Below, one piece after another: positions 41,935 to 63,400 of a stretch of DNA of 64,000 nt. Positions within the stretch are counted from its first letter, which is position 1. Each line of letters starts with the position of its first letter. The translations under genes were made by a program, and so were the position numbers. Source of the DNA: Flavobacteriaceae bacterium EG-1 (GTDB lineage Bacteria; Bacteroidota; Bacteroidia; Flavobacteriales; Flavobacteriaceae); assembly GCF_009649685.1 (NCBI RefSeq), contig NZ_WJPK01000001.1, positions 62,001 to 126,000 of the forward strand, read 5' to 3'. The notes beneath the pieces are model-generated. The model was not told where the DNA came from. It saw only the letters and a list, made by a program, of their open reading frames with translations, and made no database searches.

Positions 41935-42001
41935 TAACTCCGTTTATTGTTGATGGTAGTCCGTTAATTAAAATTTGATATTCTTAGTTTTTAAATATTT
42001 T

Positions 42002-44362: not shown

Positions 44363-44404
44363 GATTTTAAAAGTTGTTATATGCCATTATATTTTCTATA
44401 AAAT

Positions 44405-46888: not shown

Positions 46889-46943
46889 ATCTTTTGGTTT
46901 TTGTTGTGCTTATATATTAAAATACATTTGCATTTTTGCTTCT

Positions 46944-49331: not shown

Positions 49332-49338
49332 AGTATTT

Positions 49339-51735
49339 TTATTCCGTTCGTAAACTTTTTACCGGATTTGCATTTGCGGCTTTTATAGCTTGGAAACTTA
49401 CAGTTAATATTGTTATTGCCATTGCACCAATTACGGCCAAAGCAAAAATCCACCATTCTAATAGTACATGATAGGGGTAGTCTTGTAACCATCCGTTCAT
49501 TACATAGTATGAAATTGGAATAGCTATAAAACATGAAATAATTACCAATTTTAAAAAGTCTTTTGAAAGCATGTTCCAGACATTAAAAACAGATGCTCCT
49601 AACACTTTTCTTACTCCAATTTCTTTGGTACGTTGCTCAGCGACAAAAGATGTTAGCCCAAATAATCCTAGACAACTAATAAGTATTGCCAAGGCTGTGA
49701 AAACTCCAGATAATGTGCCAATACGTTCTTCGGCGGCAAACTTCTCTCCATATTCATCATCAATAAAATCATACTCAAATGGTAAGTCTGGAAAATGTTG
49801 TTTAAAAATGGTTTCTATAGTCGATAAATTCTGAGTAGCACTTTGCTTCGGATTCAAACGCAAGTTATAATAGCTAGAACCATTTTTAGCAAAGACATAA
49901 ACACCTTGTTTTACAGGTTGATAGGGCGATTGTGTAATCATATCCTGTACAACACCTATTATTTTCAACGGCGGATTGGGATCTTCCTCGTCATCATCTC
50001 TTAAAAATTTACCAACCGGATTTTTTATACCCATATATTTAACGGCCGTTTCGTTAAGTAATACCGCATTCGAATCTGATGCAAATTCTCTTGAGAAATC
50101 TCTTCCTTCAACTATTGTCATATTCAATGACTTCGCATATTCATGGGTAACTTCAGTCCATGCAAGGTCTTCTTGAAAACCTTCGGGTTTTCCATCCCAA
50201 ATAAATCCACTTCTGTTCGACCAAATTTGTGTTGTTGGGCTACTTGATGCAGACATTTCAATGATGGCATTTGACTTTAAAAATTCGTCGCGCATTAAAT
50301 CGTACTTACCAGCAAAGTCGTTACTTAGTGTTGGTATCTGAACTAGACCTTCTTTGTCATAGCCAACGGGTCTATTTTTGGCATGATTAATTTGCTGCAT
50401 TACTATTACGGTTCCGATAATAAACGCCACAGAAACTGTAAATTGAACTATTACTAAAATTTTTCGTGGCAAGCCTGCATATTTTCCAGCTTTAAATGTA
50501 CCCTTTAATACATCCACGGGTTTAAATGAAGATAAATAAAGAGCAGGGTAGCTTCCGGCAGCTAAAGAAGTAAATAAAACAAATACAATTGAAGTTAACC
50601 AAAAGAGACTATTATTCCATGGAAAAGTTATTTCTTTTTTAGATAAATCATTAAAGCCATCCATTGAGATTAAAACGATAATAGCAGCAATAAAAAATGC
50701 AAATAAAACCACCAAAAAAGACTCTATTAAGAACTGATAGATTAATTGTTTTCTTTGTGATCCAATGGATTTACGAATGCCTACTTCTTTTGATCTTTTT
50801 TCGGATCGGGCTGTACTCAAATTCATAAAATTGATGCATGCCAAAAGCAATACAAAAGCGCCTATAATTCCAAATAGCCAAACATATTTAATGCGGCCAC
50901 CAGTTTGCTTTCCATTTTCAAAATTGTTTCGTAAATACCAATCGTCCATTGGCAATAGAAAAATTTGCGGATTGAATTCTGCACTTTCTTCATCCGCTTC
51001 TTTTTTCACATTAAGTATTGTCTGTGTAATTCCCTCCATAGTGGTGTGGTCTTGTATCTGCACAAACATTTGAAACGAATTATTGCCCCATTGATCTACT
51101 GCATTTTTCATCCATTCCTGTGTGGCTAATAATTTATCCCAAGGCATAATAAATTCTAAATCGTGAAAAGAATTATTAGCAGGAATATCTTCATAAACAG
51201 CGGTGACTGCTACATCATATTGATTATTTATTTCCACTGCTTTACCGATAGGATCTTCATCTCCAAATAATGCATCGGCAACAGACTCAGATAGCATAAC
51301 CGAATTAATATCGCGTAAACCATTTTTCTCACCTTTAATGATTTTAAGATCAAGCATTTCTGGTGCAGCGGGTTGCATATAATTCCCGACTTTTGACAAG
51401 CTTTTTTCTTTATAGCCTAAATACCTAGATATATTCCAGGAAGACATTATCAAATGTTTAAAATTATCTTGATAACCTTCTCTAAGAACCATTTCCAAAG
51501 GTCTCGGAATTGCTGGGTTCGTACTTATTTCACCGTTAAAAGTTTGCGATTGAAAGACTTGGGCAATTTGATTATGATTGCTGAAATAATTATTATGTGT
51601 TAATTCATCTTCAATCCACAAACCAATAATTAAAGTTACAGCCATACCTAAGGCTAATCCACCAATATTAATAATTGAATAGCCTTTGTTTTTCCAAAGA
51701 TTTCGCCAGGCAATTTTTAAATAATTCTTAAACAT
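49339..51735 (-). CDS. FtsX/MacB-family ABC transporter permease 5 of 7
   Basis: The 798-residue permease starts MFKNYLKIAWRNLWKNKGYSIINIGGLALGMAVTLIIGLWI. Coupling motifs are KRSKEVGIRKSIGSQRKQLI and QRTKEIGVRKVLGASVFNVW, and it ends NPVKSLRTE. It is preceded by a 206-bp gap, by far the largest in the array, which holds a candidate sigma-54 element and an inverted-repeat activator site. It and its downstream neighbours could therefore be transcribed from an internal promoter. The sequence before the start codon contains the leader TCAAAAAACGA, also found before permeases 6 and 7. Confidence 0.9.
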   Translation of the reverse strand: MFKNYLKIAWRNLWKNKGYSIINIGGLALGMAVTLIIGLWIEDELTHNNYFSNHNQIAQVFQSQTFNGEISTNPAIPRPLEMVLREGYQDNFKHLIMSSWNISRYLGYKEKSLSKVGNYMQPAAPEMLDLKIIKGEKNGLRDINSVMLSESVADALFGDEDPIGKAVEINNQYDVAVTAVYEDIPANNSFHDLEFIMPWDKLLATQEWMKNAVDQWGNNSFQMFVQIQDHTTMEGITQTILNVKKEADEESAEFNPQIFLLPMDDWYLRNNFENGKQTGGRIKYVWLFGIIGAFVLLLACINFMNLSTARSEKRSKEVGIRKSIGSQRKQLIYQFLIESFLVVLFAFFIAAIIVLISMDGFNDLSKKEITFPWNNSLFWLTSIVFVLFTSLAAGSYPALYLSSFKPVDVLKGTFKAGKYAGLPRKILVIVQFTVSVAFIIGTVIVMQQINHAKNRPVGYDKEGLVQIPTLSNDFAGKYDLMRDEFLKSNAIIEMSASSSPTTQIWSNRSGFIWDGKPEGFQEDLAWTEVTHEYAKSLNMTIVEGRDFSREFASDSNAVLLNETAVKYMGIKNPVGKFLRDDDEEDPNPPLKIIGVVQDMITQSPYQPVKQGVYVFAKNGSSYYNLRLNPKQSATQNLSTIETIFKQHFPDLPFEYDFIDDEYGEKFAAEERIGTLSGVFTALAILISCLGLFGLTSFVAEQRTKEIGVRKVLGASVFNVWNMLSKDFLKLVIISCFIAIPISYYVMNGWLQDYPYHVLLEWWIFALAVIGAMAITILTVSFQAIKAANANPVKSLRTE
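49341..49360 (-). repeat. 20-bp direct repeat at permease gene end (copy 3)
   Basis: Identical to the copies at 39507 and 42004; encodes the last residues of permease 5. Confidence 0.85.
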
Positions 51736-51762
51736 GATTGTTCGTTTTTTGATTGATGATGA
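51736..51762 (-). repeat. Shared leader upstream of permease 5 (copy 1)
   Basis: The minus strand reads CAATCAAAAAACGAACAATC before the start codon. Near copies are at 54375-54400 and 56839-56860, sharing TCAAAAAACGA at nearly the same distance from the ATG. These leaders probably derive from the duplications that made the array. Confidence 0.6.
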
Positions 51763-51780
51763 TTACTACTTTTATTAGCG

Positions 51781-51795
51781 ACTAATTTCATGCCA
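51781..51795 (-). promoter_or_regulatory. Candidate internal sigma-54 element before permease 5
   Basis: The minus strand reads TGGCATGAAATTAGT: the -24 half is good (TGGCATG), but the -12 half (TAGT) matches the TTGC consensus in only two of four bases. It is 46 bp from the start codon and about 74 bp from the inverted repeat at 51860. Confidence 0.35.
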
Positions 51796-51859
51796 TACTG
51801 TTAAGTAGCTGTTATACAGTGCATTTTGCGACAATTTGATTTTAAAAAGTGTAAAATTT

Positions 51860-51878
51860 TTTGACACTATTTGTACAA
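51860..51878. promoter_or_regulatory. Candidate activator site inside the permease array
   Basis: TTTGACA-N5-TGTACAA has the same 7-5-7 spacing as the perfect repeat at 60467-60485 and matches 12 of its 14 arm bases. Confidence 0.55.
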
Positions 51879-51941
51879 TATATTTACAAGGATCTATCTC
51901 ATAATTTTAATAGAAACACTAAAATTTTCTAAAAAACCAAA

Positions 51942-54374
51942 TTACTCAGACCGTAAACTTTTCACTGGGTTTACAATTGCCGCTTTTATGCTTTGAAAAC
52001 TAACTGTAACTACTGCTACTACAATTGCCAATAATGCTGCTACCGCAAAAATCTCCCAGCCAATATGTATTCGATATGAAAAATCTTCAAGCCATTTGTT
52101 CATGGCATACCAACCAATAGGTAGTGAAATACAAATACCAATTGCCACCAATTTCAGAAAGTCCATAGTAAGGCGATACGAAATTTGCCCGACAGTCGCG
52201 CCCAATACTTTTCGCACTCCGATTTCTTTGGTTCGTTTCTCGGCATTAAAAGCTGCCAGTCCAAAAAGACCTAAGCAGGCGATAAAAATTGAGAGAATTG
52301 TAAATACCATAAATATGCTGCCAAGGCGCTGTTCAGATTCGTAGGTATTATTAAAAGACTCATCTAAAAAGAAATAATTGAAAGGTTGCCCCGGAGCAAT
52401 TTTGTTCCAAGAGGTTTCAATACCACTAATCGCACTTGCTAAATCTGCTTCATTTATTTTAATGGAAAGCATGCTAGAGAAGTCTCCCAAATACAGACTT
52501 AATGCACCAACGTTTTCACGAAGCGATTCAAAATGAAAGTTCTTAACAACACCAATTACTTTATAAAAAAATGGATTTTCAACTCCTGCATCTCTTGAGA
52601 GCCGAATTCCTAGTGCCTCATCTGGCGATAAACCTAAGACTTTAATAGCAGATTCATTTAATAATATAGCAGTTGAGTCGGTTGAAATTTGAGGGTCAAA
52701 ATCTCTTCCTGCAATTATTTCAATATTCAAAGTGCTCATGTAGTCGTGATCAACACCCCATGTTTGCATATTTAAAGCATCTTCTTGGTCTGGGGATCCA
52801 TCTTTAAAAAAAGTAGTATTATTTCGTGAAGATGGAGTAGGTAAAAAACTGGATAATGTAGCGCTTTTTACCTGTGAAAGTTGTTCAACCTCTTCTTTAA
52901 AAGTATGCCTTTTATTATCTAAAGTATACACATCGTCTACTACTAAAATTTGATCTTTAGCAAATCCTACATCTTTACTTTGAATAAATTGCAACTGCTG
53001 AAAGACTACTAAGGTGCTTACAATTAGAAAGACTGAAATAGCAAATTGAAAAATAACAAGGGAGTTTCTAACTTTTCCCCCACCAATTCCTGTTGTACCA
53101 GAACCCTTTAATACTTTTACAGGCATAAATTTTGACATAAAAAATGCAGGATAACTACCAGAAATCAGTCCAAGTAAAAGTGTAGCGCTAACTAATATAA
53201 GCCAGAAGAATGGATTGTTAAAAGGTATGGTTGTTGACCTACCAGAGAGTTCATTAAAAAATGGCAATGCAATTAATGCAATTACAATTGCTAACAATAA
53301 TGATATAAAAGATATGAGTCCAGATTCGGTAAGAAACTGTTTTATTAAATCGCCTTTGTTAGAGCCTAATGTTTTTCGGACTCCAACTTCCTTTGCTCTT
53401 TTTAGGGAGTGTGCTGTGGATAAATTCATGAAATTAACACTGGCTAATACAATCAAGAAAATACCAATAAAAGAGAGAATGTATACATTTTCCATACTAC
53501 TGTTAGCACTTAGTTCAATATCTCTATTAGAATGTAGATGTATATCTAAGAATGGAATTGTGCTATATATGAGATAATTACCAGAAGCTTTAAATGCTTC
53601 TTCGGTCATACCCGGATAAATATTTTGTACCCACGGAATTAAATATTTACCTACCATATCTTGAATAATAGGATTTACGTCTTCTATGGAGGCAGTAGGT
53701 AATAATTTTATATAGGTGTAGTAATTGTGACTTCCCCATTCACCTTCTTGCGCATCTTCATGACCAGCCATGGCCATAAAAACAGTATGTTCTCTTAAAA
53801 ATGAATTTTTCGGCAGGTCTTCGATAATTCCAGTTACGGTATAGGTGTTTTCATTATTTAATATAAGTGTTTGATTAAGAGCATTGTTTATTCCAAAATG
53901 TTTTTCCGCCGCTGATCTTGTCATCACTAAAGTATTTGGGTTTTTCAAAGCAGTTTTGGCGTTACCTACAAGCAATTCTATACCAAACATTTCAAACATA
54001 CTAGCATCGGCAAATGCAATTCTGGATTCTTTTGTGTTGGCGACTGTATTACTTTTTCGAATTAAAGCACCACCACGATTTCGAATTCGTGTGGTCATTT
54101 CAACCTGAGAAATGTCGTTTAGAATTGCTTCTGCCATGGGGGCTGATACTTCAGCAGATGCTGTTTCTTCACCACCAAATTTTATATCAGTGTTTACACG
54201 ATAAATTCTATCTGCATCTGCAAACATTTTATCGAAACTAAATTCATCATAGATGTATAACGAAATAAGCAAACCTCCTGCCATCCCAACTGCAAGACCG
54301 AAGGTATTTAAGAAGGTAAAGAAGGGCTGTTTTTTTAAACTTCGCCAAGCTATTTTTATATAGTTTTTAAACAT
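51942..54374 (-). CDS. FtsX/MacB-family ABC transporter permease 6 of 7
   Basis: The 810-residue permease opens MFKNYIKIAWRSLKKQPFF and has a first membrane helix at about 20-40. Coupling motifs are KRAKEVGVRKTLGSNKGDLI and KRTKEIGVRKVLGATVGQIS. The second extracytoplasmic domain carries VIGVVKNFHFESLRENV. It ends NPVKSLRSE. It lies 34 bp after permease 7, with the shared leader TCAAAAAACGA before the start, and the 206-bp gap lies downstream of it. Confidence 0.9.
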   Translation of the reverse strand: MFKNYIKIAWRSLKKQPFFTFLNTFGLAVGMAGGLLISLYIYDEFSFDKMFADADRIYRVNTDIKFGGEETASAEVSAPMAEAILNDISQVEMTTRIRNRGGALIRKSNTVANTKESRIAFADASMFEMFGIELLVGNAKTALKNPNTLVMTRSAAEKHFGINNALNQTLILNNENTYTVTGIIEDLPKNSFLREHTVFMAMAGHEDAQEGEWGSHNYYTYIKLLPTASIEDVNPIIQDMVGKYLIPWVQNIYPGMTEEAFKASGNYLIYSTIPFLDIHLHSNRDIELSANSSMENVYILSFIGIFLIVLASVNFMNLSTAHSLKRAKEVGVRKTLGSNKGDLIKQFLTESGLISFISLLLAIVIALIALPFFNELSGRSTTIPFNNPFFWLILVSATLLLGLISGSYPAFFMSKFMPVKVLKGSGTTGIGGGKVRNSLVIFQFAISVFLIVSTLVVFQQLQFIQSKDVGFAKDQILVVDDVYTLDNKRHTFKEEVEQLSQVKSATLSSFLPTPSSRNNTTFFKDGSPDQEDALNMQTWGVDHDYMSTLNIEIIAGRDFDPQISTDSTAILLNESAIKVLGLSPDEALGIRLSRDAGVENPFFYKVIGVVKNFHFESLRENVGALSLYLGDFSSMLSIKINEADLASAISGIETSWNKIAPGQPFNYFFLDESFNNTYESEQRLGSIFMVFTILSIFIACLGLFGLAAFNAEKRTKEIGVRKVLGATVGQISYRLTMDFLKLVAIGICISLPIGWYAMNKWLEDFSYRIHIGWEIFAVAALLAIVVAVVTVSFQSIKAAIVNPVKSLRSE

Positions 54375-54400
54375 GATTCTCGTTTTTTGATTTGATTGAT
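54375..54400 (-). repeat. Shared leader upstream of permease 6 (copy 2)
   Basis: The minus strand carries AATCAAAAAACGAGAATC just before the start codon, matching the leaders of permeases 5 and 7. Confidence 0.6.
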
Positions 54401-54408
54401 GTTTTATT

Positions 54409-56838
54409 TCATTCCGTACGCAAACTTTTTACAGGGTTCGCTACTGCAGATTTTAAAGATTGAAATCCTACAGTAAGTAATGTGATAACAATCGCAAAGC
54501 CACCTGCTAACCCAAAGACCCACCATTGTATATCGATACGATAGGTAAAATCTTCAAGCCAACGTTCAATTAATAAATAGGAAATAGGCGTAGCAATTAA
54601 AAAAGCCATACATACCAATTTTATAAAATCTTTAGTGAGTAAGTGTACTACTGAATGAATGCTGGCACCTAATACTTTTCGAATGCCAATTTCCTTTTTC
54701 TTTTGTTCTGCTACATAAGAGATAAGACCGAAAAGTCCGAGACAACTGATTAAAATTGCAAGTATTGTAAAGACTATAGAAATTTGACCCAAGCGCTTTT
54801 CTTCATCATATAGTTTCTCAACTTCTTTATCAACGAACCTGTAATCAAACGGAACGTTATTCACAACGGCATTCCATTTATTTTCTAAACTAGATAGCAG
54901 CTGGTCATAATTTTCACTTTCAGTTTTTATAAATAGCCAGTTGGGTTCATTTTCTTTATGCAGGAACAAAGGTTCTATTGCATCTTTTAAAGAAGCATAA
55001 TGAAAATCGGATACGAGGCCAATAATTTCCATTTCAAAAGTTTCATCTCCAAAACTTTGTACAAGTTTTGAATTTATCGCTTCTTCTCTTTTAATATTAA
55101 AAGCATTAATAGTGGCTTCATTCACAATAATTTGGTTGGTAGTATCTCCTTCACGGAAATCTCTTCCTTCTAAAAAGGGAATACCCATAGTTTTAAAATA
55201 ACCATCGCTAACACCATTGCGTTTTACAATAATATTTTTTTCTCTACTGCCACCAGGTAAGTATAAACCGTTATCTGCTAGTACAATTTCTGATGGCGCA
55301 TAATTTCCACTAGATACATTTAGGACACCTGGGATATTTAAAAAAGCAGTTTTAATAGATTCAAACTTACTCGATGCTTCATTGGTGCCAATGCGTAACG
55401 CTAATAGATTATTTTTTTGAAAGCCTAGATTTTTACTCTGGGTATATTGAAATTGTTGGGTAATAACAATAACTGTTGCAACTAAACCTATTGAAACCAC
55501 AAACTGAAAAACAACCAAAGTCTTTCTAAAATTTCCATTTCCAGAGTTTAATAAATTTGAACCTTTCAATGCTTTTACTGGTTTTATTGAGGATAATATA
55601 ATTGCGGGATAGATACCAGCGACAAGACCCGTGAAAATTCCTAATCCTAATAAAATGAAACCGACTTTCCCGTTTAACAAATCAAGATAGCTCAAAGATT
55701 CTTGTGTAAGATCGTTGACAAATGGTAAAAGAAAAATAGCAATGGGTATACTTATTATCATTGCGAAAATTGATAGCAAAATTGATTCGCTTAAGAATTG
55801 TCGCATTAGTGCATTTTTACCAGCACCAACTACTTTGCGAACCCCAATTTCTTTTGCACGTTTACTAGCTCTTGCAGTGCTGAGGTTTATGAAGTTGATA
55901 CAAGCTACAAGTTGAATAAAAAAAGCAAGGCTTAATAAAAAGTATAGGTATTTAATATTTGAAACACTATCAATTTGATTTTTGCGCCCGTCTGAATATA
56001 AATGTATATCCGTAGCTTTTTTAAGTGTTAGTATCTTATTGTCCATACCGGCATCGCTAAGGTTTTTACTTCCTCTTTTTTGAATAAATTCAGGTAGCTT
56101 ACTTTGCAAATTGGCCGCGCTACTATTAGTAGAAAGCTTTATGTAACTGTAAACAAAATTATTGGTAGCAAAGTCGTCAAATGTTTGTACAAACGTTCCC
56201 ATACCAGGGGTACTCATGCTAACAATGTAATTTGGGTTAAGGTGTGTTTTGTCAGATTTCTCATCAAAAACACCTTTTATAGTCAGTATTTGTGCATCTT
56301 CACCTGTACCCCAAACCACCGTTTTATCCAATACATCATAATTACCAAACAATTTATTTGCCAATTGTGATGAAAGTACTAAAGCATTCGGTCCGTTAAG
56401 TGCAGTTTTACTATTGCCTTTTAAAAACTTATAATCAAACATTTTAAAAAATGTAGAATCTGCCATGTAACTTCTAGGCTCATAAAAGGCATCTTTACTT
56501 TCAGATGCTCGAATTAAATTGCTATAGAAAACATCGGTAAGTACAATTCTGGTAACTTCTTCAACTTCGCCAAAATCTTCTTTCATAGCAAAAGCAATAG
56601 GAGGGGAGGTAGTTGCAGAATTAAAACTTTCCTGACCGTCACGTTCAATTATCGTTTCTACTCTATAAATAGATGCCGCATCAGTGAAATGAACATCAAA
56701 ACCAAACTGTGCAAAAACATAAAGCAGAATAGTAAGGCAACTAACGGTACCCAAGGTTAATCCCAACAGATTAATAATAGTTTGTTGCTTATTCTTAGAA
56801 AGATTTCTCCAAGCTATTTTGATGTTATTTTTTAACAT
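54409..56838 (-). CDS. FtsX/MacB-family ABC transporter permease 7 of 7
   Basis: The 809-residue permease is the first permease transcribed after the ATPase at 56931. It opens MLKNNIKIAWRNLSKNKQQTIINLLGLTLGTVSCLTILLYV. Coupling motifs are KRAKEIGVRKVVGAGKNALM and QKKKEIGIRKVLGASIHSVV. The second extracytoplasmic domain carries EIIGLVSDFHYASLKDAI. It ends NPVKSLRTE, but its terminal DNA differs from the 20-bp repeat in a few bases. Being next to the ATPase with complete motifs, it is the most likely core partner of that subunit. Confidence 0.9.
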   Translation of the reverse strand: MLKNNIKIAWRNLSKNKQQTIINLLGLTLGTVSCLTILLYVFAQFGFDVHFTDAASIYRVETIIERDGQESFNSATTSPPIAFAMKEDFGEVEEVTRIVLTDVFYSNLIRASESKDAFYEPRSYMADSTFFKMFDYKFLKGNSKTALNGPNALVLSSQLANKLFGNYDVLDKTVVWGTGEDAQILTIKGVFDEKSDKTHLNPNYIVSMSTPGMGTFVQTFDDFATNNFVYSYIKLSTNSSAANLQSKLPEFIQKRGSKNLSDAGMDNKILTLKKATDIHLYSDGRKNQIDSVSNIKYLYFLLSLAFFIQLVACINFINLSTARASKRAKEIGVRKVVGAGKNALMRQFLSESILLSIFAMIISIPIAIFLLPFVNDLTQESLSYLDLLNGKVGFILLGLGIFTGLVAGIYPAIILSSIKPVKALKGSNLLNSGNGNFRKTLVVFQFVVSIGLVATVIVITQQFQYTQSKNLGFQKNNLLALRIGTNEASSKFESIKTAFLNIPGVLNVSSGNYAPSEIVLADNGLYLPGGSREKNIIVKRNGVSDGYFKTMGIPFLEGRDFREGDTTNQIIVNEATINAFNIKREEAINSKLVQSFGDETFEMEIIGLVSDFHYASLKDAIEPLFLHKENEPNWLFIKTESENYDQLLSSLENKWNAVVNNVPFDYRFVDKEVEKLYDEEKRLGQISIVFTILAILISCLGLFGLISYVAEQKKKEIGIRKVLGASIHSVVHLLTKDFIKLVCMAFLIATPISYLLIERWLEDFTYRIDIQWWVFGLAGGFAIVITLLTVGFQSLKSAVANPVKSLRTE

Positions 56839-56930: not shown

Positions 56931-57626
56931 TTATATGGATGTGCCAATGGCTCTATTTTGATTTTCAGTAACAATTTGACCATCGAATAAATTAATAACT
57001 CTGTGTGCGTAATGTGAGTCACGATCAGAGTGGGTTACCATTACTATAGTTGTGCCTTCTTGATTTAATTCTGTTAAAAGATTCATGACTTCAATTCCGT
57101 TTTTTGAATCTAAATTACCCGTTGGCTCATCTGCAAGAATTAATTTTGGATTAGTAACCACCGCTCTTGCGATGGCAACACGTTGTTGCTGACCACCAGA
57201 TAATTGATGTGGGAAATGCTTTTCTCTATGTGCAATTTTCATTCGTTCTAAAACCTTCATTACTTTTTCTCTACGTTCACTTTTTCCCATTTTCAAATAG
57301 ATAAGAGGCAGCTCTACATTTTCAAAAACGGTTAGTTCGTCGATGAGGTTAAAACTTTGAAAAACGAAACCTAAGTTCCCTTTCCGTAATTCGGTACGTT
57401 GGCGTTCTTTGAGTCCGCCTACTTCATGACCAGCAAATTTGTAACTGCCTTCGGTAGGATTATCTAGCATTCCAATAATATTCAATAATGTAGATTTGCC
57501 ACAACCGGAGGGTCCCATTATTGCCGCAAACTCACCATCTTCAACTTTAAAGTTTACATTGTTTAGCGCCAAGGTTTCCACTTCTTCAGTTCTAAAACTT
57601 TTCTTTAAATTTTGTATTTGTATCAT
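56931..57626 (-). CDS. ABC transporter ATP-binding protein (LolD/MacB type)
   Basis: This 231-residue ATPase has canonical motifs throughout: Walker A GPSGCGKST (38-46), Q-loop FVFQSFNLIDELTVFENVELPL, signature LSGGQQQRVAIAR, Walker [14 protein letters not shown] and switch His in MVTHSDRDSHYAHR. It should power one or more of the FtsX-type permeases that follow. It lies 61 bp after the adaptor gene and 92 bp before permease 7, so the order is TolC, adaptor, ATPase, permeases, as in MacAB-like efflux operons. Compare the variant ATPase at 38804, with altered signature and D-loop. Confidence 0.95.
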   Translation of the reverse strand: MIQIQNLKKSFRTEEVETLALNNVNFKVEDGEFAAIMGPSGCGKSTLLNIIGMLDNPTEGSYKFAGHEVGGLKERQRTELRKGNLGFVFQSFNLIDELTVFENVELPLIYLKMGKSERREKVMKVLERMKIAHREKHFPHQLSGGQQQRVAIARAVVTNPKLILADEPTGNLDSKNGIEVMNLLTELNQEGTTIVMVTHSDRDSHYAHRVINLFDGQIVTENQNRAIGTSI

Positions 57627-57687: not shown

Positions 57688-58938
57688 TTATTTTAAAACT
57701 ATTTTCTCCGCTTCACCGAAGGAATCATAATTACTCGTAATAACTTTTTCACCAGCCTGTAGGCCTTCTAACACCTCATAGTATCTGGAGTTTTGTTTTC
57801 CGATACGTATGTTTCGTTTTAATGCTTCATCACCGTCGGCGTTTACTACAAAAATCCATTGACCACCCGTACTTTGAAAAAAGCTGCCTTTCGGTAACAA
57901 TAAGGCATCGTTTGATTCACCTAATTGTAATTTGATATTATAGCTTTGACCAGATCTAATGGTTTCTGGTTTATCTTCTGTAAAAACCAAATCCACTTTA
58001 AACTTTCCGTTACGTACTTCCGGGTATACTTTGCGTAAGCGCAACGGAAACGCATTGCCATTACGCTCTAGTACAGCTACTAAATCGCGTTGTACACGAT
58101 CAATATAATGTTCGTCTATACTAGCTTCAATTTTGTAATCCGTTAGTACGTTAATTTGTCCGATGCGCTGACCTTGGGTTATATTTTGGCCAATTTCGGC
58201 ATCAAGAAAACCCAGTTGCCCATCTGCAGGAGCACGTACGTTAAGATGATCTAAACGTTGGTAAACCATACCCAATGTTTTATGCATCCGATTTAAATCA
58301 GCTTCCAAAACAGGTAAGGAAGTCTCTCTTAATTCATCGTCATTTTCGGTCTGTACTTTTACTATTTCATATTGTTTTTGAGAAAGTTCATAGTTTTCTT
58401 TTGAGAGTTGGTATTCTTCTTTCGAGATTAATTCATCTTCAAATAAGGCTTGGTTTTGTTCAAAATTTCTTTTCAATCGTTGCAACTCTGTGCTAGCCGT
58501 TGCTAAGGACTTTCTTCCATTTATTTGTCGAGAATCAAATTCAAGTCTTGTAGAACGCAAATTGTTTTCCTTTAAAGCCATATTGCTTTCGCTGTTTAAA
58601 ATCTGCTCGTAAAGACCAATGTTATCGAGTTTTAAAATAATATCACCCTTTTTGACCATGGCACCTTCTTCAATCAATTTTTCATCAACACGGCCACCTT
58701 CGTATGCATCCATATAAATAGTAGCAATAGGAGCAACGTTACCGTTTATAGTAATATAGTCATCAAACTTTCCCTGGCTAACATCAGCTATAGATAGCTT
58801 ATCTTTTTCAGTTCTGAAGGTTGAAACCGATGTTGCGAATATTAATTGATATCCTACATAAAGAATTAAAATGCCTAGCGCAATATATCCGTAATGTTTT
58901 GGGCGTAATCCTTTTTTCTTTTCTAGTTGTATGTCCAT
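57688..58938 (-). CDS. MacA/HlyD-type periplasmic adaptor protein
   Basis: Adaptors link inner-membrane transporters to TolC-type outer-membrane channels. The 416-residue protein has one N-terminal membrane anchor (about 17-35, YGYIALGILILYVGYQLIF) and a lipoyl-like first half (VAPIATIYMDAYEGGRVDEKLIEEGAMVKKGDIILKLD). A long helical hairpin rich in Glu/Gln/Lys (about 105-215) is followed by the second lipoyl half (VRAPADGQLGFLDAEIGQNITQGQRIGQI) and a beta-barrel/membrane-proximal region. It sits between the TolC-like gene (67 bp away) and the ATPase (61 bp), and supports a tripartite route across the envelope. Confidence 0.93.
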   Translation of the reverse strand: MDIQLEKKKGLRPKHYGYIALGILILYVGYQLIFATSVSTFRTEKDKLSIADVSQGKFDDYITINGNVAPIATIYMDAYEGGRVDEKLIEEGAMVKKGDIILKLDNIGLYEQILNSESNMALKENNLRSTRLEFDSRQINGRKSLATASTELQRLKRNFEQNQALFEDELISKEEYQLSKENYELSQKQYEIVKVQTENDDELRETSLPVLEADLNRMHKTLGMVYQRLDHLNVRAPADGQLGFLDAEIGQNITQGQRIGQINVLTDYKIEASIDEHYIDRVQRDLVAVLERNGNAFPLRLRKVYPEVRNGKFKVDLVFTEDKPETIRSGQSYNIKLQLGESNDALLLPKGSFFQSTGGQWIFVVNADGDEALKRNIRIGKQNSRYYEVLEGLQAGEKVITSNYDSFGEAEKIVLK

Positions 58939-59005: not shown

Positions 59006-60352
59006 TTAATTTATATTAAATACGGGTAACCCATTATAAAAATCGAGTGTACTTTGATTGATTTCTGACCTTAATCGCACTTGTAAATTTTCGTTTTGAG
59101 CACTTGCAAATAGATTTTTCGCTGTAAAAAGTTCAATTGCATTTATCATCCCTTTTTCATATCGTTTTTGTGCAATAGTAAAGGCTAAGCTTTGAGCTTC
59201 CATTTTTCTTGTACTTTGATCTTTTTCAACAGCCAAAGACTCCTGTTCTTGTACTAATTGTTGAATAGTTTGGAAAAGTTCTTGTTCTTGTATTTCTAAA
59301 TTATTTTCGGAGCGTAGCCGTTCTATTTTTGCTTGTTTTACCCTAGATCTAGCAGACCAACCATTACTAATAGGTACACTTAAATTTATACCAACATATT
59401 TAGAGGTATTATCTCTAAATTGCTCACGAAATGGAAGGGTATTTCCCAAGGTGTCTCTTGTTGTTTCAAAATATCCAGTGCCGGTTCCTGCAAAAAATGT
59501 TAATGATGGGTATAAACTACCACGAGCTATTAACACTTGTTTTTTAGCAGCCTTAGCCCGTAATTCTTGTGCTTTTAATAAAGGAATAAACTTACGTGCT
59601 TTAGCATAAACAGAATCTGATTTTTTTTCAATGCTGATAGATTCATTTTCGGTAGTTATTAATGCCGTTTGAATAGCAATGTTAGAGACATTTTCTAAAT
59701 TCATTTCTTGAATCAGTTTTAATTTTGCTGCCTTTAATTGATTCTCACTTTGGGTAACATTTAATTTGTCTGTTAGTAATATCGACTGGGCCTCATAGCG
59801 ATCAGCACCAGCTTTTAATCCTAATTCAATTTGCTTTTCAACCAAATTGAAATTTGTTTGTGATACATTTAATTGTTCATTAGAAATCGCAACTAAACCT
59901 TCATAGAATTGAATGTCATAAAAAGCTTGCATAACTCGGAAAGCAAGTAAGTATTTTTGTTGTAAAGTTTCCTGCTGCATAGCTTTATATAGAAACTTAG
60001 AAGCTTGAATCGAATTAATCTTTTGAAAACCTTGAAAGAGATCAATAGTAGATTCAAGTGAATAATTGTTTGAAAAGAATTTAGAAGTAACTACATCATT
60101 TGTAAAAGGGTCTGTACTTCTACCGTAATTAATAGCATAACTAGAAGATGCATTTACATTTGGTAAAAGGTTACGAACAGATTGTCTGTAGGTATCTTTA
60201 CTAGCCTGTTCAGTAAAATTAAGGTCGTTTAGTTGTAGATTGTGTTGTAATGCATATGCAACACATTCGTCTAAAGTCCATTTTTCTTGAGCAGAAATAA
60301 AAGTTCTAGACCAAAATACGAGAACTATTAATATTGAAAATTTTAGATTCAT
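59006..60352 (-). CDS. TolC-family outer membrane efflux protein
   Basis: The 448-residue protein has a signal peptide (about 1-21, ending FISAQ) and the duplicated outer-membrane efflux protein domain: WTLDECVAYALQHNLQLNDLNF at the start of the first and SKYVGINLSVPISNGWSARSRVKQAKIERL in the second. Long Gln/Glu-rich helices occupy about 150-240 and 345-430, as expected for the periplasmic tunnel. It is the first gene of the minus-strand operon, 14 nt after the predicted sigma-54 transcription start, and is divergent from the response regulator. It should form the outer-membrane exit of the transporter island. Confidence 0.93.
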   Translation of the reverse strand: MNLKFSILIVLVFWSRTFISAQEKWTLDECVAYALQHNLQLNDLNFTEQASKDTYRQSVRNLLPNVNASSSYAINYGRSTDPFTNDVVTSKFFSNNYSLESTIDLFQGFQKINSIQASKFLYKAMQQETLQQKYLLAFRVMQAFYDIQFYEGLVAISNEQLNVSQTNFNLVEKQIELGLKAGADRYEAQSILLTDKLNVTQSENQLKAAKLKLIQEMNLENVSNIAIQTALITTENESISIEKKSDSVYAKARKFIPLLKAQELRAKAAKKQVLIARGSLYPSLTFFAGTGTGYFETTRDTLGNTLPFREQFRDNTSKYVGINLSVPISNGWSARSRVKQAKIERLRSENNLEIQEQELFQTIQQLVQEQESLAVEKDQSTRKMEAQSLAFTIAQKRYEKGMINAIELFTAKNLFASAQNENLQVRLRSEINQSTLDFYNGLPVFNIN

Positions 60353-60375
60353 AATTTGTTAATATGCTTTATTGT

Positions 60376-60393
60376 AAGCCACTCTTGTGCCAA
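60376..60393 (-). promoter_or_regulatory. Sigma-54 promoter of the tolC-like/adaptor/ABC operon
   Basis: The minus strand reads TTGGCACAAGAGTGGCTT: -24 TGGCAC exact, N5, -12 TGGCT (TTGCW with one mismatch), with GG and GC at the required spacing. It predicts transcription from about 60366, 14 nt before the tolC-like start. It fits the sigma-54 activator encoded divergently next door. Confidence 0.75.
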
Positions 60394-60466
60394 AAAAATT
60401 ATAGCAATGATAATCAGGTAGTTAAGATTTAAATTTGATTCGTTTTTTATATATCCTGTAAAATAG

Positions 60467-60485
60467 TTTGACAGCTATTGTCAAA
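60467..60485. promoter_or_regulatory. Activator-binding site upstream of the sigma-54 promoter
   Basis: TTTGACA-GCTAT-TGTCAAA is a perfect inverted repeat with 7-bp arms, centred about 86 bp upstream of the -24 element. Next to it at 60489-60505, TTGGACA-N3-TGTAAAA looks like a weaker second site. A close relative lies at 51860-51878. Confidence 0.65.
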
Positions 60486-60636
60486 AATTTGGACACTTTG
60501 TAAAATATATTAAATACTAATTGTAGCTTTAAAAATTAAAGAATCATAATGTAAATAGTGCATTAGAAGGCCATTTTGCAATTCGCCATTTAAATGGAAT
60601 ATTTATTGAAGCGTAATTGTATATTAATTTCTTATT

Positions 60637-61998
60637 ATGTTAGATGCTAAAATTTTGGTTGTAGATGACAACAAAAGTGTATTGAGTGCACTGGAGATAC
60701 TTTTGCAATTTGAGTATAAAACAGTACAAACAATTTTTAATCCCAATCAACTTCCAACACTAAAAGGATTACCCGATTTTGATATCGTACTGCTCGATAT
60801 GAATTTCTCTGCTGGTGTGAATACAGGAAACGAAGGCCTCTATTGGTTGCGAGAAATTAGGAAAAAGGCACCAGAGATTTCTGTTATAATGATGACGGCC
60901 TATGGGGCTGTTGATTTAGCCGTTAAAGCGCTAAAAGAAGGTGCTGCAGATTTTGTTTTAAAACCTTGGAATAATGATAAACTTTTGGCTACAGTAAAAT
61001 CTGCTTATGAATTGCGACAATCGCGCAAAGAGGTGATACAATTAAAACAAAAAGAAGATAATCTTAAACAGGTTATAAATCAGCGTAAGAATTATATTGT
61101 CGGTAACTCCAAGGCATTAAATATGGTGCTTAAATTGGTAGGTAAAGTTGCTAAAACTGATGTAAATGTTTTGGTTACAGGTGAAAATGGAACTGGAAAA
61201 GAATTGATAGCTAGGGAGTTACATAATTCTTCAAAGCGGAATGATGAAGTCTTTATAGCAGTTGATATGGGATCTATTTCTGAGCATCTTTTTGAAAGCG
61301 AATTATTTGGACATACAAAAGGTTCTTTTACTGATGCTAAAGAAGACCGTGCCGGAAAATTTGAAGCGGCCAATGGCGGAACTTTATTTTTAGATGAAAT
61401 TGGAAACCTATCATTACAAACGCAGGCTAAATTATTGTCAGCTATTCAAAATAGAACTGTTGTTAGAGTAGGGTCGAACAAACCAATTCCTGTCGATATT
61501 CGATTAATTTGTGCCACAAACGAGAATCTCGATAAAATGGTTGCAGATGGCCTTTTTAGAGAAGATTTATTATATCGTATAAACACCATTTCAGTTGAGG
61601 TTCCAGCATTGCGCGACAGAGATCAAGATGTTTTGGTTTTAGCAGATTTTTACTTGAAAAAATTTGCTGCTAAATATGGTAAATCAGGAATACGGATAAA
61701 TCAAATCGCTCAAGATAAATTGTTGTCTTATTCATGGCCTGGTAATGTTCGTGAACTTTTACATACGGTTGAAAGAGCTGTAATACTTTCGGAAGGAAAT
61801 GTATTGAAATCGGAAGATTTTTTGTTGAATGCTAAGCCTAACAATTCACCAGAAATAGGTTTAAAAACCTTGGAAGAAATGGAGGTGCAAATGATAACTA
61901 ATGCGCTGGCTAAAAACGAAGGCAATTACAGTGCAGCTGCTGAGCAATTAGGCATTTCTAGGCAAACTTTATATAATAAGATGAAGAAAATAAAGTGA
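60637..61998 (+). CDS. Sigma-54-dependent response regulator (NtrC family)
   Basis: The 453-residue protein has a receiver domain (1-125) with phosphoacceptor Asp54 in VLLDMNF, acidic pair Asp10-Asp11 and Lys109; a sigma-54 AAA+ domain (about 155-385) with Walker A GENGTGKE (182-189), Walker B FLDEIG (251-256) and WPGNVREL; and a Fis-type helix-turn-helix (AAAEQLGISRQTLYNKMKKI) at the C-terminus. The sigma-54-contacting GAFTGA loop reads GSFTDA (229-234), a tolerated but non-standard form. It is divergent from the tolC-like operon, whose promoter has sigma-54 elements and an inverted-repeat site, so that operon is its likely target. It is followed 52 bp later by its histidine kinase. Confidence 0.95.
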   Translation: MLDAKILVVDDNKSVLSALEILLQFEYKTVQTIFNPNQLPTLKGLPDFDIVLLDMNFSAGVNTGNEGLYWLREIRKKAPEISVIMMTAYGAVDLAVKALKEGAADFVLKPWNNDKLLATVKSAYELRQSRKEVIQLKQKEDNLKQVINQRKNYIVGNSKALNMVLKLVGKVAKTDVNVLVTGENGTGKELIARELHNSSKRNDEVFIAVDMGSISEHLFESELFGHTKGSFTDAKEDRAGKFEAANGGTLFLDEIGNLSLQTQAKLLSAIQNRTVVRVGSNKPIPVDIRLICATNENLDKMVADGLFREDLLYRINTISVEVPALRDRDQDVLVLADFYLKKFAAKYGKSGIRINQIAQDKLLSYSWPGNVRELLHTVERAVILSEGNVLKSEDFLLNAKPNNSPEIGLKTLEEMEVQMITNALAKNEGNYSAAAEQLGISRQTLYNKMKKIK

Positions 61999-62050: not shown

Positions 62051-63400
62051 ATGGTAAGTAGAAGTATTTATTTGCAGCTTGTAGTTCGTATAGTATTATT
62101 AACTGTAGCTGGATTAGGGGTAGGTTTTTTCTTTTTCTCGAAGCAATATATTCTAGCTATTTTGAGCTTGTTAATATTAATCATCCTTACTACTACCTTA
62201 ATTCACTACGTAAATCAAACCAACAGAAAGATTGCTTATTTTTTTGATGCTATTAAAAATGAAGATTTCACGCTACGTTTTCCGGAGAAATTGAGTGTAA
62301 AGTCATTAGAAGAACTGAATCATAGTCTAAATATGTTGAATGAAATGATTCAAGAAATTCATTTAAAAAAATTAGCACAAGAACAATATTATAAAGAGAT
62401 AATTAAACAAGCAGATATTGGAATTTTAACCGTAAACGAAAAGGGCCACATTCTTTTTGCAAATAGTACAATCGAAAAATTGTTTAATTATACTCCATTA
62501 AATCATATAAAACAATTGGCGCTGGTTGACAAAAATTTGTACACCCTTTTTGAAGAATTAAAACCTTTCGAAAGTAAGTTAGTGCAATTAACTAATGAAC
62601 GTGAAAAAAAACAATTATCAGTAAAATCAACAGCAATTACTTTTGAGGATAAAGAACTTTTATTAGTTGTCGTACAAGACATTGATAAAGAGTTAGATGA
62701 AAAAGAAACAGATTCGTGGGTGAAATTAATAAGAGTTTTAACTCATGAAATTATGAATACGATAACACCTATTACTTCAATTTCAGAATCTATTTTAAAG
62801 TATTATAAAACAGAGAAAGGTTTATTAACTAAAGATACAATACAAGAAAATCATATTCGAAATACAGCTAAAGGCTTAGAGGTTATTAAAGAGCAAGGGA
62901 GTGACTTAATGGAGTTTGTGCAGTCTTATCGCAGTATCTTAAGTATGCCAAAACCCGATAAAAGCCTTATAAAAGCAGACCGCTTGTTGGAAAAGGTTAG
63001 GGTTTTAATGGAGCAAGAGAGTAGTGGAGGAAAAGTAAAATTCGAGATTATTGTTAATCCTTTAGATCTTGAGCTATATATTGATGAAAAGCAAATCTCT
63101 CAAATTTTAATAAATCTTACAAAGAATGCATTACAATCTCTTAAGGGTAAAGAGGATGGTAAAATAAAAGTCATAGCAGCATTATCAACAGGTGGTGAAA
63201 AATATATACAAATCTTAGACAACGGACCGGGTATTCCTGAAGATTTAATAGATGAAATTTTTGTTCCCTTTTTCACTACCAAAGAAACAGGAACAGGTAT
63301 AGGATTAAGTTTATCGAAACAAATAATGCATCTACATGGAGGTACAATTAAAGCACATTCGATACCACATAAACAAACATCATTTTTATTAGTATTTTAG
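62051..63400 (+). CDS. Histidine kinase with intramembrane-type sensor region
   Basis: The 449-residue kinase has two membrane helices (about 9-29 and 33-53) separated by only three or four residues, so it has essentially no extracytoplasmic sensor domain. A cytoplasmic linker follows, then a PAS domain (about 113-215, ADIGILTVNEKGHILFANSTI), a phosphoacceptor His232 in LTHEIMNTITPI and a HATPase domain with NLTKNALQSL, DNGPGIP and GTGIGLSLS. The NTITPI box after the His matches NtrB/NtrY-like kinases. It is the second gene of a two-component operon with the sigma-54 regulator and sits next to an FtsX-permease island, as Bce-type kinases do in Firmicutes. Confidence 0.93.
   Translation: MVSRSIYLQLVVRIVLLTVAGLGVGFFFFSKQYILAILSLLILIILTTTLIHYVNQTNRKIAYFFDAIKNEDFTLRFPEKLSVKSLEELNHSLNMLNEMIQEIHLKKLAQEQYYKEIIKQADIGILTVNEKGHILFANSTIEKLFNYTPLNHIKQLALVDKNLYTLFEELKPFESKLVQLTNEREKKQLSVKSTAITFEDKELLLVVVQDIDKELDEKETDSWVKLIRVLTHEIMNTITPITSISESILKYYKTEKGLLTKDTIQENHIRNTAKGLEVIKEQGSDLMEFVQSYRSILSMPKPDKSLIKADRLLEKVRVLMEQESSGGKVKFEIIVNPLDLELYIDEKQISQILINLTKNALQSLKGKEDGKIKVIAALSTGGEKYIQILDNGPGIPEDLIDEIFVPFFTTKETGTGIGLSLSKQIMHLHGGTIKAHSIPHKQTSFLLVF

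Follow-up and report, generated by a model that had tools for sequence, protein, structure and literature searches.

Introduction

Sigma-54 control regions of the NtrC/NifA type combine upstream dyads for an AAA+ activator, a bending site in between, and a −24/−12 promoter. Control regions of this type with IHF were reportedly described by Hoover in 1990, in a work cited in PMC7057263. An NtrC-type activator acting with IHF and sigma-54 is an already known kind of system.

Several more specific precedents bear on the locus studied here. In the sections cited, a survey (PMC12316311, PLoS One 2025) reports predicted sigma-54 promoters before FtsX-like permeases (COG0577) in Bacteroidia and calls the GAFTGA motif invariant. 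For Flavobacterium psychrophilum, the cited part of PMC9723704 describes sigma-54 promoters (motif SM4) mapped by 5'-end RNA-seq. Bce-type modules, as outlined in excerpts of PMC3023708 and PMC10314905, pair an intramembrane-sensing kinase with an FtsX-type ABC transporter. Here, we analyzed a control region in Flavobacteriaceae bacterium EG-1 which, judging from its sequence and that of its relatives, is very probably a switch through which a two-component system controls, by way of sigma-54, an ABC efflux system of the MacB/FtsX type. All coordinates refer to the window, i.e., the whole analyzed stretch of 64,000 nucleotides.

Gene content of the locus

A 284-bp gap separates a tolC-like gene (start 60352) from a divergent NtrC-type regulator gene (start 60637). 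The tolC operon encodes, in order, a TolC-like outer membrane efflux protein (59006–60352, − strand; Pfam OEP, 1e-43), a HlyD/MacA-like periplasmic adaptor (57688–58938, −; Pfam HlyD_3), an ABC ATPase of the MacB/LolD/DarD type (56931–57626, −; Pfam ABC_tran, 1.9e-38), and two MacB_PCD/FtsX permeases (gene 1, 54409–56838, −, by Pfam and NCBIfam; gene 2, 51942–54374, −). Among NCBIfam models, DarC was the best for the adaptor by E-value, under its cut-off, and RND_mfp scored over its cut-off; DarD was the best for the ATPase, under its cut-off. Permease gene 2 is followed by a 206-bp gap and then by five more permease genes and an ATPase gene. These are MacB_PCD/FtsX permease gene 3, the first after a second promoter (49339–51735, −; Pfam), four further permease genes (49331–46944, 46888–44405, 44362–42002, and 41934–39505, all −), and the ABC ATPase gene ending this second run (39469–38804, −). 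The cluster at 39505–56838 thus holds seven MacB_PCD/FtsX permease genes of ~800 aa; an ATPase gene lies ahead of the leading pair and a second one behind the remaining five. One permease run against NCBIfam matched the ADOP and darobactin-exporter models, under cut-off.

The regulator gene (60637–61998, +) encodes a receiver (Response_reg, 8.3e-19), an AAA+ sigma-54 activation domain (Sigma54_activat, 5.3e-68), and a Fis-type helix-turn-helix (HTH_8, 1.8e-15). A preliminary description of this DNA had rightly named this divergent neighbor a sigma-54 activator, but had also called it an orphan, which does not hold: a histidine kinase gene (62051–63400, +; PAS, HATPase) begins 52 bp past its end. 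Read by eye, the kinase translation begins with what appear to be two hydrophobic segments joined by a very short loop, and its gene lies beside those of an FtsX-type transporter. The genome also contains rpoN (a single match, Sigma54_DBD 6.9e-51), the absence of which the preliminary description had named as grounds for abandoning its promoter assignment.

Tandem dyads as the predicted operator

The preliminary description had proposed the perfect repeat TTTGACA-N5-TGTCAAA as the activator site. The repeat does exist (TTTGACAGCTATTGTCAAA, 60467–60485) and is the single exact copy in the 4.45-Mb genome, but it is composed of the right half of one dyad and the left half of another. These two dyads of the form TGT-N11-ACA, dyad 1 (TGTCCAAATTTTTGACA, 60479–60495, −) and dyad 2 (TGTCAAACTATTTTACA, 60457–60473, −), are 17 bp each with 5 bp between them, and their centers are 22 bp apart, or about two helical turns, which puts both on one face of the helix. 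A second tandem operator, TGTAAATATATTGTACA-N5-TGTCAAAAAATTTTACA (51850–51888, −), lies with a predicted promoter of its own in the 206-bp gap ahead of permease gene 3, 8.6 kb from the first. These are the only two exact tandem sites in the genome (zero in the reversed control); both are in this cluster, and both have TGGCAY in register.

Based on window trinucleotide frequencies, 0.23 tandem dyads would be expected by chance (P of two or more ~0.02), and 0.008 when TGGCA is included within a 16-bp range of gaps on either side. This frequency estimate was used in place of simulated sequence, 12 Mb of which contained zero tandem sites. It is the arrangement and its conservation, not the single elements, that exceed expectation. 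The repeat TTTGACA-N5-TGTCAAA was found five times in the window with up to three mismatches (10.0 expected) and at 33 sites genome-wide with up to two (42 in the reversed control). A genome-wide regulon of this repeat was rejected, the two-mismatch counts being at control level.

For comparison, orthologues were taken as the best 80 of 473 relatives, of which 77 had enough upstream DNA (that of L259, L265, and L269 was too short). Their genera include Aurantibacter, Maribacter, Zobellia, Pricia, Cellulophaga, relatives of Muricauda, Arenibacter, and others. Tandem dyads were present in all 77 orthologous regions (72 exact, five with one mismatch). All 77 also had GGCAY downstream of the dyads, at 62 bp (8), 63 bp (66), or 64 bp (3), in a search that imposed GGCAY (and thus GG) and permitted gaps of 55–70 bp.

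These regions also bear on whether the single palindrome TTTGACA-N5-TGTCAAA, bound by one dimer, could itself be the operator, as its perfection in the window and uniqueness in the genome might imply. The exact repeat occurred in none of the 77, a result of the very scan, next to the same operon in related genomes, that the preliminary description had recommended. Complementarity at inner pairs 4, 5, 6, and 7 (pair 4 being the outermost) was found in 41, 33, 77, and 61 of the 77 regions for dyad 1, in 73, 9, 76, and 64 for dyad 2, and in 11, 28, 76, and 69 for the junction. Pairs 6 and 7 would thus suit a junction palindrome, as would pair 5 when set against dyad 2. Pair 4 argues for the dyads, as does the joint count, since all four pairs were complementary at the junction in 0/77 regions versus 13/77 in dyad 1 and 8/77 in dyad 2. 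Moreover, the outer TGT and ACA, which lie beyond the repeat, were kept like the inner ones (37–38 of 38 at each base, in sites mostly selected for these triplets). In more distant paralogues (group B, below), the inter-dyad spacer varies from 4 to 6 bp and the centers remain 21–22 bp apart. Taken together, an operator made of the single palindrome is very unlikely.

The 38 sites behind the count of outer and inner triplets were exact sites selected for TGT/ACA, two loci excepted; L108 and L096 were admitted with one and two mismatches, respectively. L152, from genome G098, which has no close regulator, was left out, as was one spurious L108 match. Symmetry within the dyads was assessed by column shuffling. 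For the 20 main sites, the shuffles supported the symmetry of dyad 1 (reached by 7/500) but not that of dyad 2 (reached by 129/500); for the 18 other sites, dyad 1 fell below its shuffle (reached by 493/500). Across all 38 sites, the symmetry of neither dyad exceeded the column shuffle. As symmetry is modest and mixed, the support for reading these sites as dyads comes from the constancy of the TGT/ACA triplets and from their period. We infer that the operator consists of two tandem TGT-N11-ACA dyads, the predicted site of the divergent regulator.

Sigma-54-type promoters

The predicted main promoter, TGGCAC-N5-TGGCT (TGGCACAAGAGTGGCT, 60392–60377, −), lies 24–41 nt ahead of the tolC ATG (60352–60350) and has GG at −24 and GC at −12 with correct spacing, just as first described. 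The start predicted from its position, near 60366, agrees with the one proposed earlier, both being sequence-derived. No exact copy of the rival promoter motif TAnnTTTG occurred in the 100 bp ahead of the tolC ATG. The second sigma-54-type promoter, TGGCAT-N5-TAGTC (51780–51795, −; predicted +1 near 51769), is 54 bp from its operator and has no −12 C. The textbook consensus TGGCACNNNNNTTGCW, with up to two mismatches, gave 20 matches in the window versus 23.6 expected, i.e., no excess.

The −12 box contained T (position 12) and G (position 14, G(−13)) in 77/77 orthologous regions, neither of which was imposed by the search, and the −12 C was present in only 18/77. A link between the missing −12 C and the loop sequence of the regulator (GSFTDA, see below) was considered and dropped because only 1 of 10 sigma-54-like promoters without dyads has that C. 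The sigma-54-type promoter and its predicted link to the neighboring activator are well supported. In 62/77 orthologues (68/77 within one base), a second GGCAY coincides with the predicted transcription start, 24 bp past the −24 box; in the window (60352–60370, −) it is degenerate, and no −12 partner was seen by reading.

On the other side of the operator, a −7-like box of the regulator gene, TAGCTTTA (60524–60531, +; compare TAnnTTTG), was identified by reading, 28 bp from the dyad edge. The pattern TAGnTTTR was found ahead of the regulator gene at 62/77 loci and at exactly 28 bp from the dyad edge in 59/77, and the operator therefore probably also touches regulator expression. Feedback of the regulator on its own expression is likely on this basis. 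The same fixed distance could be taken to mean that the dyads serve this housekeeping-type promoter, by autoregulation, and that the TGGCAY boxes are incidental. We consider this very unlikely: dyads with in-register TGGCAY also occur where the regulator gene is not adjacent (at 51850 in the window and at dispersed permease promoters), and GGCAY deviates by no more than 3 bp from a single position in 77/77 regions, all of which have T and G in the −12 box.

Distribution and candidate targets of the composite site

Across 149 family genomes, the tandem site with TGGCA was found at 41 places in 23 genomes, versus 3 for the reversed pattern; across 299 family genomes, the composite motif was found at 86 places in 53 genomes, versus 7 for the reversed control. 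The compared sites stem from related genomes and are not independent events, and the site was present in 22 of 45 genomes with a regulator relative (E ≤1e-100) and in 1 of 104 without (149 family genomes). This agrees with the earlier assignment of an upstream activator site to the divergent NtrC-type gene. The promoter, the existence of an upstream site, and its regulator, as first described, are supported; the 19-bp repeat as operator is not, nor is the orphan status. An exact composite match was absent from 23 of the 45 regulator-bearing genomes; 11 of these 23 belong to group B, with 16-bp dyads.

The gap from operator to −24 was 51–54 or 62–65 bp at 84 of the 86 places, in a search that permitted 46–76 bp; the remaining two gaps were 58 and 74 bp. 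Two of the 86 places, one in G077 (in phase) and one in G020 (58 bp), belong to tandems that had been counted from their opposite side. The target of a site was defined as the closest open frame downstream that phmmer matched, at E ≤1e-10, to one of the proteins encoded in the window. Among 43 newly fetched places, 41 precede TolC (19), adaptor (9), or permease (13) genes, and two had no match; the target lay within 170 bp in 40 cases and at 434 bp in one. The regulator gene was divergent in all 28 TolC and adaptor cases. Twelve earlier dispersed sites, from five regulator-bearing genomes, precede nine MacB/FtsX permeases, one ABC ATPase, and one DUF2807 gene, with no recognized gene at the twelfth. 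A thirteenth, in G098 (no close regulator), has no related target, and the in-phase sites of G098 and G161, which lack a related target, were taken as chance.

In G020, an in-phase operator-promoter (L141) precedes no recognized gene, and another (L143) precedes a DUF2807 gene; both are possible extra regulon members outside transport. In a genus relative (G001, L163), a homologue of permease gene 5 is preceded by a third tandem operator, and TGGCA lies 63 bp from it. At the equivalent position, the window has only a 55-bp gap and no exact site.

Loop variants and paralogues of the regulator

The sigma-54 loop of the regulator reads GSFTDA in place of the literal GAFTGA. Among the 80 orthologous regulators (best 80 of 473), 70 have GSFTDA and 10 GAFTDA; among 21 group A regulators, 20 have G[AS]FTDA and one has GAFTDS (L039). 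Two other activators read from the same genome have GSFTGA and GAFTGA. The group B regulators, more distant paralogues with 42–49% identity that are mostly divergent from adaptor genes, comprise 27 with G[AS]FTDA, two with GAFTGA, one with GAFTNA, and one with GAFTSA (31 in total).

The literal GAFTGA is thus missing from 21/21 group A and 80/80 orthologous regulators, which could mean that the regulator bypasses sigma-54 and acts on ordinary RNA polymerase. A partial parallel comes from VfmH, which also has GAFTDA, the effect of which is called unknown in the cited passages of PMC10714721; RpoN was not found in the VfmH pull-down reported there. However, the target promoters keep a −24/−12-like box at fixed phase, and the genome contains rpoN. 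In addition, PMC4641369, in the part cited, includes GAFTDA in a list of loop variants that would remain active and, after earlier work, gives sigma-54 targets to the GAFTDA regulator DVU2106. As that source counts GAFTDA among sigma-54 activators, GSFTDA was treated as a variant within the family, and a bypass of sigma-54 seems very improbable.

Group B operators follow the same plan with other inner bases, e.g., TGTATCGGCAGCGTACA or the 16-bp TGTTCGAAAACGAACA. Dyads (up to one mismatch, best of four lengths) together with TGGYAY were found for 29 of 31 group B regulators. As dyad length changes, so does the inter-dyad spacer, which leaves the distance between centers at 21–22 bp. The recognition helix reads TLYNK in 21/21 group A regulators and ALYRR (28/31) or SLYRR (3/31) in group B. 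Two sigma-54 activator paralogues from genus relatives (L010 and L013) have in-frame stops in the match and may be decayed genes, sequencing errors, or matches past the gene end.

An IHF-like palindrome between operator and promoter

Between the operator and −24 lies a palindromic element, TAACTACCTGATTATCATTGCTATA (60400–60424), with a counterpart at the second promoter, AAATGCACTGTATAACAGCTACTTA (51802–51826); they rank 22 and 27 of 38 by score. Read on the + strand, positions 60412–60424 (AATCAGGTAGTTA) fit WATCARNNNNTTR, the 13-bp IHF consensus given in the cited section of PMC9820253, at every position. The second copy fits less well. The family consensus is a 25-bp palindrome, TAAnnnnYTGATWATCARnnnnTTA, each half of which fits WATCARNNNNTTR, so that both strands match. 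With up to three mismatches, this pattern had no match in the EG-1 genome; the copy at the main promoter is offset by one base, and its counterpart is imperfect.

A weight matrix built from the 38 sites located the palindrome 18–20 bp above −24 in 41/41 new sites, all at p ≤0.05; these sites, from which L175 and L189 were left out, come from related genomes and are not fully independent. The matrix also placed it in each of the 29 group B sites, with p ≤0.05 in 27; there it lies 18–19 bp from −24 in 15 short-gap sites and 28–30 bp in 14 with 16-bp dyads. For matches at p ≤0.05, the distance from palindrome to operator was 34–36 or 44–46 bp. Spacers read backwards gave 12/70 matches at p ≤0.05, at scattered positions. 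Spacing therefore shifts by whole turns, with ~35 or 45 bp from operator to element and ~19 or 29 bp from element to −24, in line with a need for the parts to be turned toward each other.

The palindrome might instead be bound by some other dimeric regulator or by the C-terminal domains of the polymerase alpha subunits. Its symmetry would suit such proteins, and it sits about where upstream promoter elements lie. Conversely, both halves fit the IHF consensus (PMC9820253, section cited), and the genome has two DNABII genes, one IHF-like by reading its translation. A homodimer reading the symmetric site is therefore plausible. The palindrome is also common to promoters with different operators and to dyad-free sigma-54-like promoters, and in one subgroup it lies one helical turn farther from −24, a shift that a polymerase contact should not allow. 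We regard these other binders as rather unlikely, though with a substantial share of probability, and favor a DNABII bending site.

The palindrome is not confined to promoters with dyads. In 149 family genomes, palindrome plus TGGCA (up to two mismatches) was found at 65 places in 47 genomes, versus 1 for the reversed pattern. Thirty of these places were read, and 24 keep TGGCA: 11 have TGT dyads at operator distance (eight with two, three with one) and 13 do not. At ten of the 13 dyad-free places, T-N-G occupies −12 and the site is intergenic by gene prediction. These sigma-54-like promoters (L205, L211, L213, L215, L217, L221, L223, L224, L230, and L231) are presumably served by other activators. 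Among the downstream products at these ten places, judging from the translations, are a UDP-glucose dehydrogenase-like protein and others that resemble secreted proteins or lipoproteins. In a phylum sample, palindrome plus TGGCA matched in 17 of the 49 genomes that share the class of EG-1, compared with 6 of the 149 that do not (reversed control, 1); among matches read, TGGCA was intact in 12/49 and 2/149, respectively. Given the dyad-free occurrences and the class bias, the palindrome seems to be characteristic of Bacteroidia sigma-54 promoters and not just of this regulon.

We tentatively propose, at slightly less than an even chance, that Bacteroidia sigma-54 promoters may have three parts: −24, −12, and a symmetric double IHF half-site at fixed helical phase, read by a homodimeric IHF-like protein. 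This element would be standard whatever the activator, and the GSFTDA/GAFTDA regulator would use it for a dispersed MacB/FtsX regulon.

Proposed mechanism

In the mechanism suggested by these features, the kinase (62051–63400) would phosphorylate the regulator (60637–61998) on an envelope signal. By analogy with Bce systems, its stimulus may be a peptide substrate or stress on the envelope, possibly relayed by the permeases. Regulator dimers are predicted, from conservation, to bind the two TGT-N11-ACA dyads, 22 bp from center to center, and, as is typical of the family, would assemble an AAA+ hexamer. An IHF-like DNABII protein would bend the DNA at the palindrome between operator and promoter, and the hexamer, again as in the family, would contact sigma-54 RNA polymerase at TGGCAY-N5-T-N-G and open the promoter with ATP. 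Transcription by sigma-54 would start near 60366 and 51769. The first promoter would drive tolC-adaptor-ATPase-permease-permease and the second module (51888–51780) the five permease genes and terminal ATPase gene, each putatively as a single transcript. The regulator-kinase pair is probably read from the housekeeping-type promoter TAGCTTTA.

Implications and comparison with known systems

The analysis gives a predicted regulator, operator, spacing rule, and targets for a MacB/FtsX efflux regulon of marine Flavobacteriaceae, and knock-outs and reporters could therefore be designed directly. It adds to the preliminary description a second operator-promoter 8.6 kb away, the IHF-like palindrome, helical phasing, and the GSFTDA loop. 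The spacing rule picks targets with few false matches (41/43), compared with the textbook consensus TGGCACNNNNNTTGCW, which yields only four sites genome-wide, all overlapping predicted open reading frames. Filters for the literal GAFTGA or a −12 C would miss the system. If general, the double IHF half-site would be a testable third sigma-54 promoter element in a class with little-studied promoters.

A literature search on sigma-54 with MacB/FtsX or Bacteroidetes, covering titles, abstract starts, and few subscription papers, did not find a regulator with this operator. As far as these searches show, the activator, operator, phase rule, target list, and symmetric middle element are new. The survey PMC12316311 likewise ties sigma-54 to the FtsX-like permease family in Bacteroidia, but its cited sections do not connect COG0577 with any activator, operator, IHF site, or rule of spacing. 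As the activator filter described there demands the literal GAFTGA, it would exclude this regulator.

The F. psychrophilum study (PMC9723704, in the part cited) resembles our findings in having one sigma-54 and a −24/−12 motif in Flavobacteriaceae, with one promoter region mutation-tested. Its SM4 targets, in a selected table, are mainly chaperones, gliding, and exported proteins, with no TolC or permease, and, unlike here, the cited text assigns no activators to these promoters. As in the Bce modules of the excerpts cited above, the kinase appears, by reading, to have almost no extracellular loop and is encoded beside FtsX-type permeases. It differs from them in that the regulator is a sigma-54 activator and the host is a diderm with TolC and an adaptor. 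The adaptor, ATPase, and permease resemble the darobactin exporter DarBCD and MacAB-TolC through matches to DarC, DarD, ADOP/DarB, and MacB or MacA models; these fall below curated cut-offs.

With NtrC/NifA-type control regions, this locus shares upstream dyads, a middle site, and a −24/−12 promoter. It differs from them in that its middle site fits the IHF consensus whichever strand is read and that spacing changes by whole helical turns. The −12 C is missing from most of the promoters, G[AS]FTDA is the loop sequence of the activator, and the targets are MacB/FtsX transporters.
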